From Thermococcaceae archaeon (GTDB taxonomy: Archaea; Methanobacteriota_B; Thermococci; Thermococcales; Thermococcaceae), in NCBI GenBank assembly GCA_030156945.1, contig JASGLT010000011.1, forward strand, positions 1-60,756: a DNA stretch of 60,756 bases, read 5' to 3'. A program made the translations under genes and the position numbers. Shown here piece by piece: positions 10,736-14,592 of the stretch (position 1 is the first letter of the stretch; each line of letters starts with the position of its first letter). Below the pieces are notes generated by a model that worked only from the letters and a program-made list of their open reading frames with translations, was not told where the DNA came from and did not search any database.

Positions 10736-10747
10736 GACTTAAATAAT
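10736..10747 (+). promoter_or_regulatory. TATA box of the serpin gene
   Basis: GACTTAAATAAT places the transcription start near 10765. The ATG at 10746 would then lie upstream of the mRNA, which decides in favour of the later ATG at 10776, behind GGTGGG. Confidence 0.6.
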
Positions 10748-10775
10748 GGGACGGAATATTTGTTTGGTGGGTCCT

Positions 10776-12470
10776 ATGCAGAGAAAGAGGATAATTTTCG
10801 TGTTCCTCCTTTCGATCATTATTTTAAGTAGCGGTTGCGTCTCATCTCCGAACAATTCTGGGGCATCCTCCGCTTCAAGCTCTACTAACGGGGAAAATCC
10901 AAGCTATGCATCTTCTACCACAAACTCTACGGCATGGGGGAACACGAACACAACCCCAACACCCACACCAAATTCCATTCACGAGAACGCGAATGACTCC
11001 TCGGGACCGCAGGAAGTCACGATAGTCGTGCTGGGGCCTAAACCAAATGTGAAGCCGGAAGATTCGATGTTCTTGGTAGAGGGCTCCACCCGGTCTTACG
11101 GGATGGCCTTAGCACCCCTCCAGTCGGGAGCACTGGTGTTTCTATGGTTGTTGGATCCCAACGGCCCAGCCAATCGGAGTGCCACCTTTAGGCTGATAGA
11201 CGCCAAAACGGAAAGAATGCTCACGGCTAAAAACATCACCCTATTCAGAAATGGGGACTCCAAAGGTGTTTTCATCAAAATAACGGTTCCCCAACGGGGT
11301 TACTACATAATTGAAGCAACTGTGGGAAACTTGACTCTGAGTACAAAAATCTCGATTCCTCCGACTTCTATAATCGATTCGATCAACGCATTTGCCCTCG
11401 ACCTCTACCGCAAACTGGCAAAGGGAGATGAGAACGTCTTCTTCTCGCCCTTCAGCATCGAAACTGCTTTGGCTATGGTCTACGAGGGAGCTAGGGGCAA
11501 AACCGCGGAGGAGATGGCAAACGTCCTTTACCTTCCAGAAGACAGGGAGGAAAGGCTGAATAGTTTTAGCTTCTTGATGCATTCGCTGAACTTGAACGAT
11601 ACCCCTTACGTACTCTCCACAGCAAACGCTCTCTGGGTTCAGAAGGGATACCCAATCAAGAAGGATTACGTTGAGACGATAGAGACCTACTACCTTGGGG
11701 AACTTCACGCCCTCGACTTCGTGGGCAACCCCAGGGGAGCGGAGGACGAGATAAACTGCTGGGCCGAGGAGGAGACCAAAGGCAGGATCAAGAAACTCGT
11801 GAAGGGGCTAAGCTCCGACACGAGGCTCGTACTGACCAACGCTATCTACCTCAAGGCCAACTGGAGCAGTCGCTTCAATCCTTCTGAGACCCACAACGGC
11901 ACTTTCTTCTTCCTCGGAGGGAGCGTGGTTGTTCCGTTCATGGAGCAGGTTGGCCTCTTCAACTACGCCGAGGGGGACTCCTTTCAGGCCCTTGAGATGC
12001 CCTACGAAGGGGAGAGGCTCTCCATGGTAATCCTCCTGCCGAAGAAGATGGACGGCCTTGGGGAACTGGAAGCGAACCTTACGCCCCAGTTCCTTGATGG
12101 GGTCATCAGAAGCCTCAAGCCCGAGAAGGTCGCGGTGATGATTCCGAAATTCAGGTTCGAGGCTTCGTACAAGCTCAGGGACGTTCTCATTGACATGGGA
12201 ATGAAGAGCGCCTTTACCAGCGCGGACTTCTCTGGAATCTCCGATGAGCCTCTGGTCGTCAGTCAGGCCGTCCACAAGGCCTTCATCAGTGTGGCGGAGA
12301 ACGGGACGGAAGCGGCCGCGGCAACCGCCGTTACGATAACGCTGGCGGCCCCACCGGAGAGCGAGAAGCCCAAGGTCTTCAACGCTGACCATCCGTTCAT
12401 CTTCCTCATCTACGACAGGGAGACCGGAGCGGTGCTTTTCATGGGGCGCATGATGAACCCAAAGGGCTGA
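10776..12470 (+). CDS. Serpin (serine protease inhibitor), lipoprotein
   Basis: Predicted cell-surface protease inhibitor of 564 residues. A hydrophobic signal with lipobox-like SSGC is followed by a Ser/Thr/Asn-rich linker and a beta-rich domain at about 75-190. The serpin domain runs from about 195 to the end, with NALWVQKGYPI, LTNAIYLKANW and the C-terminal DHPFIFLIYDRETG signature. The reactive-loop hinge GTEAAAATAV is intact at 510-519, as in inhibitory serpins. Counting from the hinge puts P1-P1' at about Ala524-Ala525, small residues that would suit subtilisin-like proteases. T. kodakarensis Tk-serpin inhibits Tk-subtilisin. The start was chosen from the TATA position. Confidence 0.92.
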   Translation: MQRKRIIFVFLLSIIILSSGCVSSPNNSGASSASSSTNGENPSYASSTTNSTAWGNTNTTPTPTPNSIHENANDSSGPQEVTIVVLGPKPNVKPEDSMFLVEGSTRSYGMALAPLQSGALVFLWLLDPNGPANRSATFRLIDAKTERMLTAKNITLFRNGDSKGVFIKITVPQRGYYIIEATVGNLTLSTKISIPPTSIIDSINAFALDLYRKLAKGDENVFFSPFSIETALAMVYEGARGKTAEEMANVLYLPEDREERLNSFSFLMHSLNLNDTPYVLSTANALWVQKGYPIKKDYVETIETYYLGELHALDFVGNPRGAEDEINCWAEEETKGRIKKLVKGLSSDTRLVLTNAIYLKANWSSRFNPSETHNGTFFFLGGSVVVPFMEQVGLFNYAEGDSFQALEMPYEGERLSMVILLPKKMDGLGELEANLTPQFLDGVIRSLKPEKVAVMIPKFRFEASYKLRDVLIDMGMKSAFTSADFSGISDEPLVVSQAVHKAFISVAENGTEAAAATAVTITLAAPPESEKPKVFNADHPFIFLIYDRETGAVLFMGRMMNPKG

Positions 12471-12500: not shown

Positions 12501-13247
12501 ATGCCCGCCTGGAAGGACGGAAAACTAGGACTGCCAGTAAAGGAAGCGGTAAAGCTGTTCCCGGAGCTTGAGAGATACATTGATGAGCGCGGAAAATTAG
12601 ATTTCTCGAACAGAGAGGCAAGGATACTCTACAACAGGGCCATAGCAAAGGCAATCTTCGGACTGGATATACAGTACCATCCAAAGGGCCTCGTGACAAC
12701 TCCGATCTCGCGCTACCTCTTCCTGAGGACTTTTCTAAGGGGAGGCGAAAAAGTCCTCGAAATAGGAACCGGACACACGGCTATGATGGCCCTCATGGCC
12801 GAGAGGCTCTTTAACTGCTACGTTACCGCTACGGAACTTGACGATGAGTTCTTTGAATACGCAAAGCGGAACATCGAGAAGAACGGGGCAAATGTGAAGC
12901 TCATCAAAAGTGACAGCGGAATCATCAGAGACGTCGTCCCCAAAGGGGAGGGGTTTGACGTCATCTTTTCGGCACCGCCCTACTACGAGAGTCCGACTAA
13001 AGGAGTCTTAACGGAGAAGGAGGGTGTCGGTGGCGGAAGATACGGCGAAGCGTTTTCCGTAAGGCTCATAGAGGAGGCGCTCGAATACCTCAACCCAGGG
13101 GGCAAAGTTGCCCTCTTCCTTCCGGACAAGGAGCCGCTGATAGAGGCTATCGCGGAAAAGGGAAAAGAGCTCGGTTACTCCGTTAGGGACGTTAAGTTCA
13201 AAGTAGGGACGAGGTGGAGGCACAGCCTCCTACTACATAAGCCCTAA
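12501..13247 (+). CDS. RlmF/METTL16-like N6-adenine RNA methyltransferase
   Basis: Class I SAM-dependent methyltransferase of 248 residues. Motif I is VLEIGTGHTAMMA, followed by an acidic motif II (TATELDDEF). Motif IV, SAPPYYES, is of the (N/D/S)PP(Y/F) type used by N6-adenine methyltransferases, and the overall arrangement matches the RlmF/METTL16 family. The target, presumably an adenine in rRNA or another structured RNA, cannot be read from sequence. A TATA-like GCTTTTTAAATC ends about 20 bases before the ATG, so the message is probably leaderless. The end overlaps the convergent AAA ATPase gene by 15 bases. Confidence 0.84.
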   Translation: MPAWKDGKLGLPVKEAVKLFPELERYIDERGKLDFSNREARILYNRAIAKAIFGLDIQYHPKGLVTTPISRYLFLRTFLRGGEKVLEIGTGHTAMMALMAERLFNCYVTATELDDEFFEYAKRNIEKNGANVKLIKSDSGIIRDVVPKGEGFDVIFSAPPYYESPTKGVLTEKEGVGGGRYGEAFSVRLIEEALEYLNPGGKVALFLPDKEPLIEAIAEKGKELGYSVRDVKFKVGTRWRHSLLLHKP

Positions 13248-14525
13248 GAAAGCCCACCAGGGTATCATGAGCAAGTTCCCCTTCATTTCGAACTCTTTCC
13301 CAATCACGATTCCAAACTCGGCCCCAAGGCGCTCCATGCTCCTCCTTACCTGGGAGTAGTCGTCCTTTCCAAGCCCAACTTCAACAACGTAGCGCCTTCC
13401 GTTTCGGGTCAAAACGAAATCGGCACCCCCTTTTCCAGGCTCATATTCCAGAGTCCCCTCTCCGGACAGATAGAGGGCAACGGCGTCTTCGAGGAGAGGC
13501 GCTGTCTCGACAACATCGAACTTTGAGAGCAGGGCGGCTCTGAAAGATGGAGCCAGAAACTTGAGCTTGGGGCTCTTCCGTATCTTCTTGGAAACGCTTC
13601 CTACAGGTGGTATCTCAAGCAGAAGGTCGCTCGCAACGAACGCCTTCACGAGCCCTATGGTGGTACCCTTTGATACGCCCAAGACTTTGGACAGCTTCTC
13701 ATAGCTGAAGCGCTCCCCTTTTGGATTGGAGAGGAGCACGAGGAGCCTCATGGCTGAGTCCAGGGTCGATGAATCAAAGTTCCTGACCTCGGGCAGGTCT
13801 TTGTAGACTATCCTCTCCATCAAAGAAAATATCAGCTCATATGCCGTCCTCTCGTCGAATTCGAGGGCCACTGGGAGTGAACCAGTTCGCAGATACATTT
13901 CAACCCTATCCCCAAACCTAGCTGTTCCTGAAACGGCTTTTTCTAGTTTATCAATCTCCCACTCAAAGAGTGCTTCCAGCTGTTGAGGTAACGTGTCTTC
14001 CCCGATGAGGTGAAGGTACTCATTGAAACTAAGCGGCTTTATACCTATATGAATAGCCCTCCTCGCCAAATCAGCGCTCTCCCTGAGTTTTATGGCCGAC
14101 GAACCAGTTGCGATAATAAGGGCCCTTTTGCTGTCGTGGAGGACTTTTAGGGTCAAATCCCAATTATCATCGTACTGGACTTCGTCCAGGAGAATAACGG
14201 GTCTTTCAGGCCGAAACAGCTTGAAATATCTATCCACAGCCTCATGTAGGCTGAATCCAAGCAGGTGGAGTTCATCGGCTGAAAAATAGATGACGTCTGA
14301 GGTCTGGGAGAGAACATGGAAGTAAAGCTGGGCGAGAAGCGTTGTTTTACCCGTACCTCTCAGCCCGGGAAGGAGGATGGTTTTTGGAAGTCCACCGTTG
14401 AGATATTCATCAACAACGAGAGCAAGTTTTTCGAAAAGAAACCTCCTTCTCAACTTCCTCGCATAGTCAAACCTCACCGGAAGTTCGGCTGAGAGCTTTA
14501 AAATATAGTCATTTAAATCAACCAT
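13233..14525 (-). CDS. Archaeal AAA ATPase with winged helix and DUF4143-like C-terminus
   Basis: ATPase of 430 residues. Walker A is GLRGTGKTT (54-62), Walker B ILLDE (111-115), and TGSSAIKL is the sensor-like motif of this archaeal family. A winged-helix segment (SYEKLSKVLGVSKGTTIGLV) lies near 275-300. The C-terminus (GADFVLTRNGRRYVVEVGLG) resembles the nuclease-like DUF4143 tail with its D/E-xV core. Such proteins are abundant and often mobile in Thermococcales; their roles are mostly unknown. The ATG used is the second one, behind GGTGGG. The promoter carries three copies of a TGGTCA-type palindrome, one overlapping the start codon, which suggests tight and possibly self-made control. 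Confidence 0.85.
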   Translation of the reverse strand: MVDLNDYILKLSAELPVRFDYARKLRRRFLFEKLALVVDEYLNGGLPKTILLPGLRGTGKTTLLAQLYFHVLSQTSDVIYFSADELHLLGFSLHEAVDRYFKLFRPERPVILLDEVQYDDNWDLTLKVLHDSKRALIIATGSSAIKLRESADLARRAIHIGIKPLSFNEYLHLIGEDTLPQQLEALFEWEIDKLEKAVSGTARFGDRVEMYLRTGSLPVALEFDERTAYELIFSLMERIVYKDLPEVRNFDSSTLDSAMRLLVLLSNPKGERFSYEKLSKVLGVSKGTTIGLVKAFVASDLLLEIPPVGSVSKKIRKSPKLKFLAPSFRAALLSKFDVVETAPLLEDAVALYLSGEGTLEYEPGKGGADFVLTRNGRRYVVEVGLGKDDYSQVRRSMERLGAEFGIVIGKEFEMKGNLLMIPWWAFLGLM

Positions 14526-14592
14526 TGGACCCACCATTTGGTCATTTAAATGACCAAATATAAAAGAATTTTGGTCAGCTAAATGGCCATAA
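14503..14592. promoter_or_regulatory. Three operator-like palindromes at 33-bp spacing
   Basis: The central site, 14536-14559, is a perfect 24-bp palindrome built on TTGGTCATTTAAATGACCAA. Copies matching 18 of 24 positions lie at 14569-14592 and 14503-14526, each shifted by exactly 33 bp, about three helical turns. On the minus strand the TATA box (CTTTTATATT, 14557-14566) lies between the first two copies, and the third covers the start codon of the ATPase gene. Confidence 0.8.

Follow-up and report, generated by a model that had tools for sequence, protein, structure and literature searches.

Three palindromic sites at regular 33-base-pair (bp) intervals lie across the promoter and start codon of an ATPase gene in a Thermococcaceae archaeon (assembly GCA_030156945.1, contig JASGLT010000011.1; the window, that is, the whole stretch of DNA analyzed here, is 60,756 nucleotides long). 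The encoded protein combines an AAA_14 ATPase domain, a predicted winged helix and a DUF4143 region, and many of its relatives in archaea and bacteria carry palindromes of other sequences at a pitch of 32–34 bp. Given these comparisons, we consider it likely, with a probability of about 0.78, that the palindromes serve as operators for the ATPase that they precede, which would occupy the tandem sites as winged-helix dimers and repress its own gene.

Tandem palindromes at the ATPase promoter

The central site (ATTTGGTCATTTAAATGACCAAAT, 14536–14559; putative operator B) is a perfect 24-bp palindrome, as read directly from the sequence. By direct count, the copies on either side of it, TTTTGGTCAGCTAAATGGCCATAA (14569–14592; putative operator A) and ATATAGTCATTTAAATCAACCATT (14503–14526; putative operator C), are each identical to the central palindrome in 18 of the 24 positions, and a repeat search at the locus recovered the three copies with spacings of 33 and 33 bp. 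The ATPase gene is encoded on the minus strand (13233–14525), and the TATA-like box, AAATATAAAA on the plus strand (~14556–14565) and TTTTATATTT on the minus strand, is located between the central and upstream copies, in a position that is the same in orthologs. The conserved start is the ATG at 14525–14523, directly behind a GGTGGG ribosome-binding site (14530–14535, minus strand) that precedes the aligned ATG in most orthologs, so that the third copy spans the start codon; an alternative ATG at 14537, which would yield a longer open reading frame (ORF), is unaligned in orthologs. Read in the sense of the gene (minus strand, start at 14525), operator A thus comes first, followed by the TATA box, operator B, the ribosome-binding site and, over codons 1–6, operator C.

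The motif is specific to this locus. A search of the 2.08-Mb genome with the 18-bp core and up to 3 mismatches, for which the expectation is 0.01 occurrences in the window, detected the ATPase promoter locus only, and the reversed pattern, used as a control, yielded no matches in the same genome. The self-similarity score of the ATPase promoter is the highest among the 57 genes of the window, six others of which show a weak top shift at 32–33 bp. A global regulon was considered and rejected because the motif is confined to the ATPase locus in its own genome. Across the Thermococcaceae, the strong matches fall at ATPase genes or their deleted remnants, and the remaining matches, with 2–3 mismatches and inside genes, are chance-like.

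Relatives of the ATPase (E≤1e-20) are present in 53 of the 94 Thermococcaceae genomes, and nearly all orthologs, from about 20 genomes of this family, have the palindrome directly past the TATA box. In clade 1 (57–100% identity), this palindrome is located at −31/−32, and the upstream copy lies 33 bp further upstream in nearly all members with a detectable copy, in some of them reduced to a half-site; it is decayed or missing chiefly at two loci (L013 and L087). The two arms of the palindrome change together, for example, in TGGTCGTTTAAACGACCA, and only 2 of 2000 shuffles attained the number of such both-arm changes observed, although shuffling leaves the kinship of the sequences in place. In clade 2 (45–53% identity), the central site is kept, often in an altered form, and several members pair the central and coding copies at 33 bp, the spacing of this repeat across the clade being 33–34 bp. 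Judging by synonymous codon use, the coding copy (codons 1–6) is under constraint at the DNA level: GAC encodes Asp6 in all 34 genes counted and GAT encodes Asp5 in all 20 (both counts include related sequences), compared with 342 GAC and 332 GAT among the Asp codons elsewhere in the same genes, related sequences again included. The layout described in a previous sequence-only reading of the window, namely, a perfect 24-bp palindrome between the TATA box and the start codon with 18/24 copies 33 bp to either side, one beyond the TATA box and one over the start codon, is exactly the one found, and the check that it suggested, whether orthologs across Thermococcales conserve the palindromes and their 33-bp phase, had a positive outcome in the Thermococcaceae genomes.

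Action of the repeats in RNA, as leader hairpins, appears extremely improbable. The palindromes could in principle fold, and single-arm changes to G-U do occur, at one pair, but the perfect palindrome is loopless, the exact 33-bp pitch would be meaningless for RNA, and the upstream copy is located beyond the TATA box and therefore should not be transcribed.

A 32–34-bp pitch with changing half-sites

Paralogs of the ATPase within the Thermococcaceae retain the spacing with different sequences. Clade 3 has ATTAACTAAAA-type repeats spaced by 34 bp around the TATA box, and clade 5 has GACTAGAC repeats, also at 34 bp; the palindromes of both clades occupy the slot equivalent to that of the clade 1 palindrome, with a different sequence. 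In one genome (G084, locus L092), clade 3 and clade 1 ATPases are encoded 1.6 kb apart, and in another (G056, locus L088), the clade 1 and clade 3 ATPase genes adjoin; in both, each gene has an operator-like palindrome of its own. Such adjoining or nearby pairs of PDC-S01-type ATPases from different clades, each with its own palindromes, were seen at three loci, the third being L014 (G051).

The same arrangement is detectable far from the Thermococcaceae. A Falkowbacteria relative (31% identity) carries AGTGTTAAGTGGACTTGACACTGAA and AGTGTAAAGTAGAGTTAACACTAAA 34 bp apart, and a strong 34-bp repeat with diverse half-sites precedes all 13 Patescibacteria relatives inspected (L003 and L161–L172), being the top shift in 12 of the 13. 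In the Patescibacteria, the sequence TTGAC(A), a possible −35 box, is often found inside the upstream site or adjoining it, which fits an equivalent repression logic on a bacterial promoter. Among plasmid-borne relatives, the pitch is 32 bp in Methanosphaera, Methanomethylovorans and Persicobacter, 33 bp in Haladaptatus, Haloferax and Parabacteroides, and 34 bp in Aliarcobacter; in the Sulfuricurvum homolog, the repeat is weak. As far as these comparisons go, the layout is wider than the window, extending to paralog clades, methanogens, halophiles, Bacteroidota, Campylobacterota and Patescibacteria, with unrelated palindromes at a pitch of 32–34 bp. On the Methanosphaera plasmid pNP174 (L173), three near-identical copies of ATATTTTGTAAAAGATAAAA with a 32-bp pitch are located upstream of position 1399, before the ATPase.

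An unbiased test of the pitch used PF13635 genes from a sample of Patescibacteria genomes (86 upstream regions), and each gene was assigned the shift, in the range of 15–60 bp, that gave the highest self-similarity within 154 bp around the start. The top shift was at 32–34 bp in 38 of the 86 regions (44%; binomial p=1.4e-22), compared with 7.4% of dinucleotide shuffles, 5 of 86 intragenic windows, none of 71 regions upstream of other ORFs and none of 27 downstream regions. After thinning to <50% identity, 17 of 50 regions had this top shift (p=8.5e-9), and the repeated units at the 32–34-bp pitch display dyad symmetry (p=4e-21 versus control shifts).

These positional data bear on the alternative that the palindromes are not regulatory at all but are DNA targets of the main activity of the ATPase, in recombination, replication or mobility, located at the promoter by coincidence. 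Iteron-like direct repeats occur in replicons, and an ATPase with a nuclease-like domain, a patchy distribution and occurrences on plasmids would be compatible with such a role. Nevertheless, the sites are placed to either side of the TATA box and keep a fixed distance to the start codon, there is no enrichment downstream of the gene (the 0 of 27 above), and the loci that lost the gene, discussed below, look like deletions, one of them retaining short stretches that resemble the ORF ends; we therefore consider this alternative improbable.

The ATPase_2 (PF01637) proteins of Thermococcus provide a further comparison. Like the window ATPase, these are P-loop ATPases, encoded in many copies, with repeats adjoining the TATA box. 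Their repeats have a 15-bp pitch in about a third to 40% of the sample, and the 32–34-bp pitch was found in 1 of 30, so the latter is no general property of archaeal ATPase promoters. The 15-bp repeats suggest a second, family-specific operator geometry and, with it, that these ATPases might be self-regulated as well. At the ATPase_2 loci (L275–L304; for example, L279, L284 and L298), the repeats are often of the AGTAAATTACT or TGATAAT type and are located just past the TATA box.

The ATPase as the probable reader of its own operators

The window protein (430 amino acids from the conserved start) was delineated by profile searches and ortholog alignment. Its AAA_14 domain (residues 48–171; 14013–14384, minus strand; PF13173, E=6.8e-25) scores 88 bits against a gathering cut-off of 27. 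The DUF4143 match is borderline, at 28.2 bits against a cut-off of 28.1, and DUF4143 was detected at E≤0.1 in 12 of 12 aligned relatives. The protein also matches the PADLOC profile PDLC04787 of the PDC-S01 family (E=1.3e-34, residues 50–400), and the nine relatives that were scanned likewise match PDC-S01 profiles. A search of NCBIfam returned no family for the ATPase, and a search for virus relatives found none.

The predicted winged helix, the proposed operator reader, maps to approximately residues 252–305 (13611–13772, minus strand). The claim of the sequence-only reading that the ATPase contains a winged helix is substantiated through its homologs rather than the protein on its own: Pfam gives no helix-turn-helix (HTH) match in the window protein itself, but 9 of the 12 aligned homologs match HTH_IclR, and 7 of the 12 match MarR_2, HTH_24 or HTH_36. 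The HTH_IclR match is above the cut-off in one relative (L031), the HTH matches in other relatives being weaker. A profile built from 12 relatives places MarR, BirA and AdcR winged helices at the same residues with weak E-values. A two-sequence AlphaFold model (the window protein and one relative) is poor (predicted local distance difference test score, 41); it has helix-helix-helix-strand-strand in the winged-helix region, and we place no reliance on it or on the PDB fold search made with it. On the strength of the HTH profile matches, the family is counted among the winged-helix DNA-binding proteins.

The C-terminal domain (approximately residues 341–425; 13251–13505, minus strand) is PD-(D/E)XK-like by alignment, with invariant D369 and E382. 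The catalytic set is incomplete: the position of the usual Lys, at E+2, is occupied by a nearly invariant Gly384, which cautions against classing the domain as an active nuclease, and the active site possibly has migrated or been lost. Nearly all aligned relatives have a conserved Lys at E+5, three residues past Gly384.

With a palindromic site over its own promoter that is conserved together with the gene, the ATPase gene has the layout expected of an autoregulated repressor, and its product is a candidate for one. Three observations jointly favor the ATPase as the binder: its own gene is the sole place where the site occurs, paralogs within a single genome differ in their half-sites, and the pitch stays constant from one domain of life to another. 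We infer protein binding, repression, cooperativity and an inducing signal from this arrangement, as follows. The winged helix, as a dimer, would bind a palindrome of ~24–26 bp, and two or three dimers on copies about three helical turns apart (32–34 bp) would sit on nearly the same face of the DNA and touch each other. The central site would cover the position where the polymerase is recruited or starts, the upstream site would close off the TATA box on its far flank, and the start codon would lie under the third site. With dimers over the TATA box and the start region, the promoter would be shut and the ATPase would be kept low and self-limited; release by ATP state, oligomerization or a signal such as infection may follow. 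The cooperative repressor proposed in the sequence-only reading, with self-repression as a possibility, thus gains support from the conserved palindrome and spacing, the 32–34-bp pitch with changing half-sites and the different operators of adjacent paralogs; the family-wide extent of the pattern goes beyond that reading.

The principal competitor of self-repression is a separate transcription factor, encoded elsewhere, that recognizes the palindromes and regulates the ATPase. Palindromes of this kind are bound by many archaeal regulators in the form of winged-helix dimers, and sites persist in four genomes (G019, G024, G030 and G080, at loci L048, L051, L057 and L110, respectively) in which the syntenic locus lacks the ATPase yet has one or two recognizable operators. 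Such sites may reflect recent loss of the gene or use by a related ATPase or by another user; in G080, short stretches resembling both the start and the end of the ORF remain, adjoining the operator, which fits a deletion. However, the genome has the site at this promoter only, the separate operators of neighboring paralogs count against one shared regulator, and no annotated regulator is encoded beside most of the plasmid homologs examined. Moreover, a constant pitch from archaea to Patescibacteria with changing sequence would call for a dedicated partner coevolving with each ATPase. A separate factor is, therefore, unlikely in our assessment, although less so than the other alternatives.

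Besides the gene-less loci, several results weigh against self-repression by the ATPase. More than half of the sampled PF13635 genes lack a top repeat at 32–34 bp, and after thinning to <35% identity, the signal is down to 4 of 17 (p=0.02). In the clade 4 Thermococcaceae, the repeat is seen weakly, and there is no 32–34-bp repeat upstream of the Acinetobacter, Calditerrivibrio and Runella homologs. A link between the recognition helix and the operator is equivocal. Among 13 genes with DxKT[VI] in the recognition helix, 8 are preceded by palindromes of the form TCC-n20-GGA, against 0 of 73 others. This association is strong, but the pattern was chosen after inspection of the same set, the genes belong mostly to one clade, and in a held-out half, with a looser spacer, the association is non-significant. 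A partial Mantel test of operator similarity against winged-helix identity gave a weak, non-significant result (35 of 500 permutations). A direct link is thus suggestive only.

Extending self-repression from the window ATPase to the whole PDC-S01 (AAA_14-DUF4143) family, we lean, by a small margin over even odds, toward a self-repressing switch in both archaea and bacteria, in which the winged helix would read a lineage-specific palindrome, the geometry of the protein assembly would set the three-turn spacing, and a state-changing signal would arm the protein and open the promoter.

Related systems

PDC-S01 has been described as a single-gene system, an ATPase fused to a domain of the PD-(D/E)XK superfamily, and listed as a PADLOC phage-defense candidate (PDC) with ~10,000 archaeal and ~29,500 bacterial occurrences; validation is pending for most PDCs, and PDC-S01 is a candidate antiviral system (PMC12988326). 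The passages on PDC-S01 consulted in that article mention no operator or autoregulation. Searches of the open-access literature on DUF4143, COG1373 and autoregulated ATPases turned up no operators for the family; subscription literature was outside this search, and an earlier description is possible.

A functional parallel is the plasmid ParA of type Ia, a DNA-binding ATPase that is reported to repress itself by binding its own promoter cooperatively (PMC8465637), as proposed here for the window ATPase. The fold and the partner system of ParA differ from those of the window ATPase. Nor is the ParA gene known to carry fixed tandem palindromes at ~33 bp across domains of life. Repressors of the MarR/IclR type resemble the present case in their HTH profiles and in the palindromic operators over the promoter, the difference being that the winged helix of the window protein forms part of a larger AAA+ ATPase that also has a nuclease-like tail. 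Autorepression is common but is not a known feature of AAA+ ATPases with tails of this kind.

The PDC-S01 family is among the most frequent uncharacterized defense candidates, and its conserved operator layout offers a ready binding assay, prediction of the DNA target from the promoter and a handle on the sensed signal. Elsewhere in the window, an ORF at 10746–12470 is serpin-like by eye, with a signal peptide, which is unusual in archaea.
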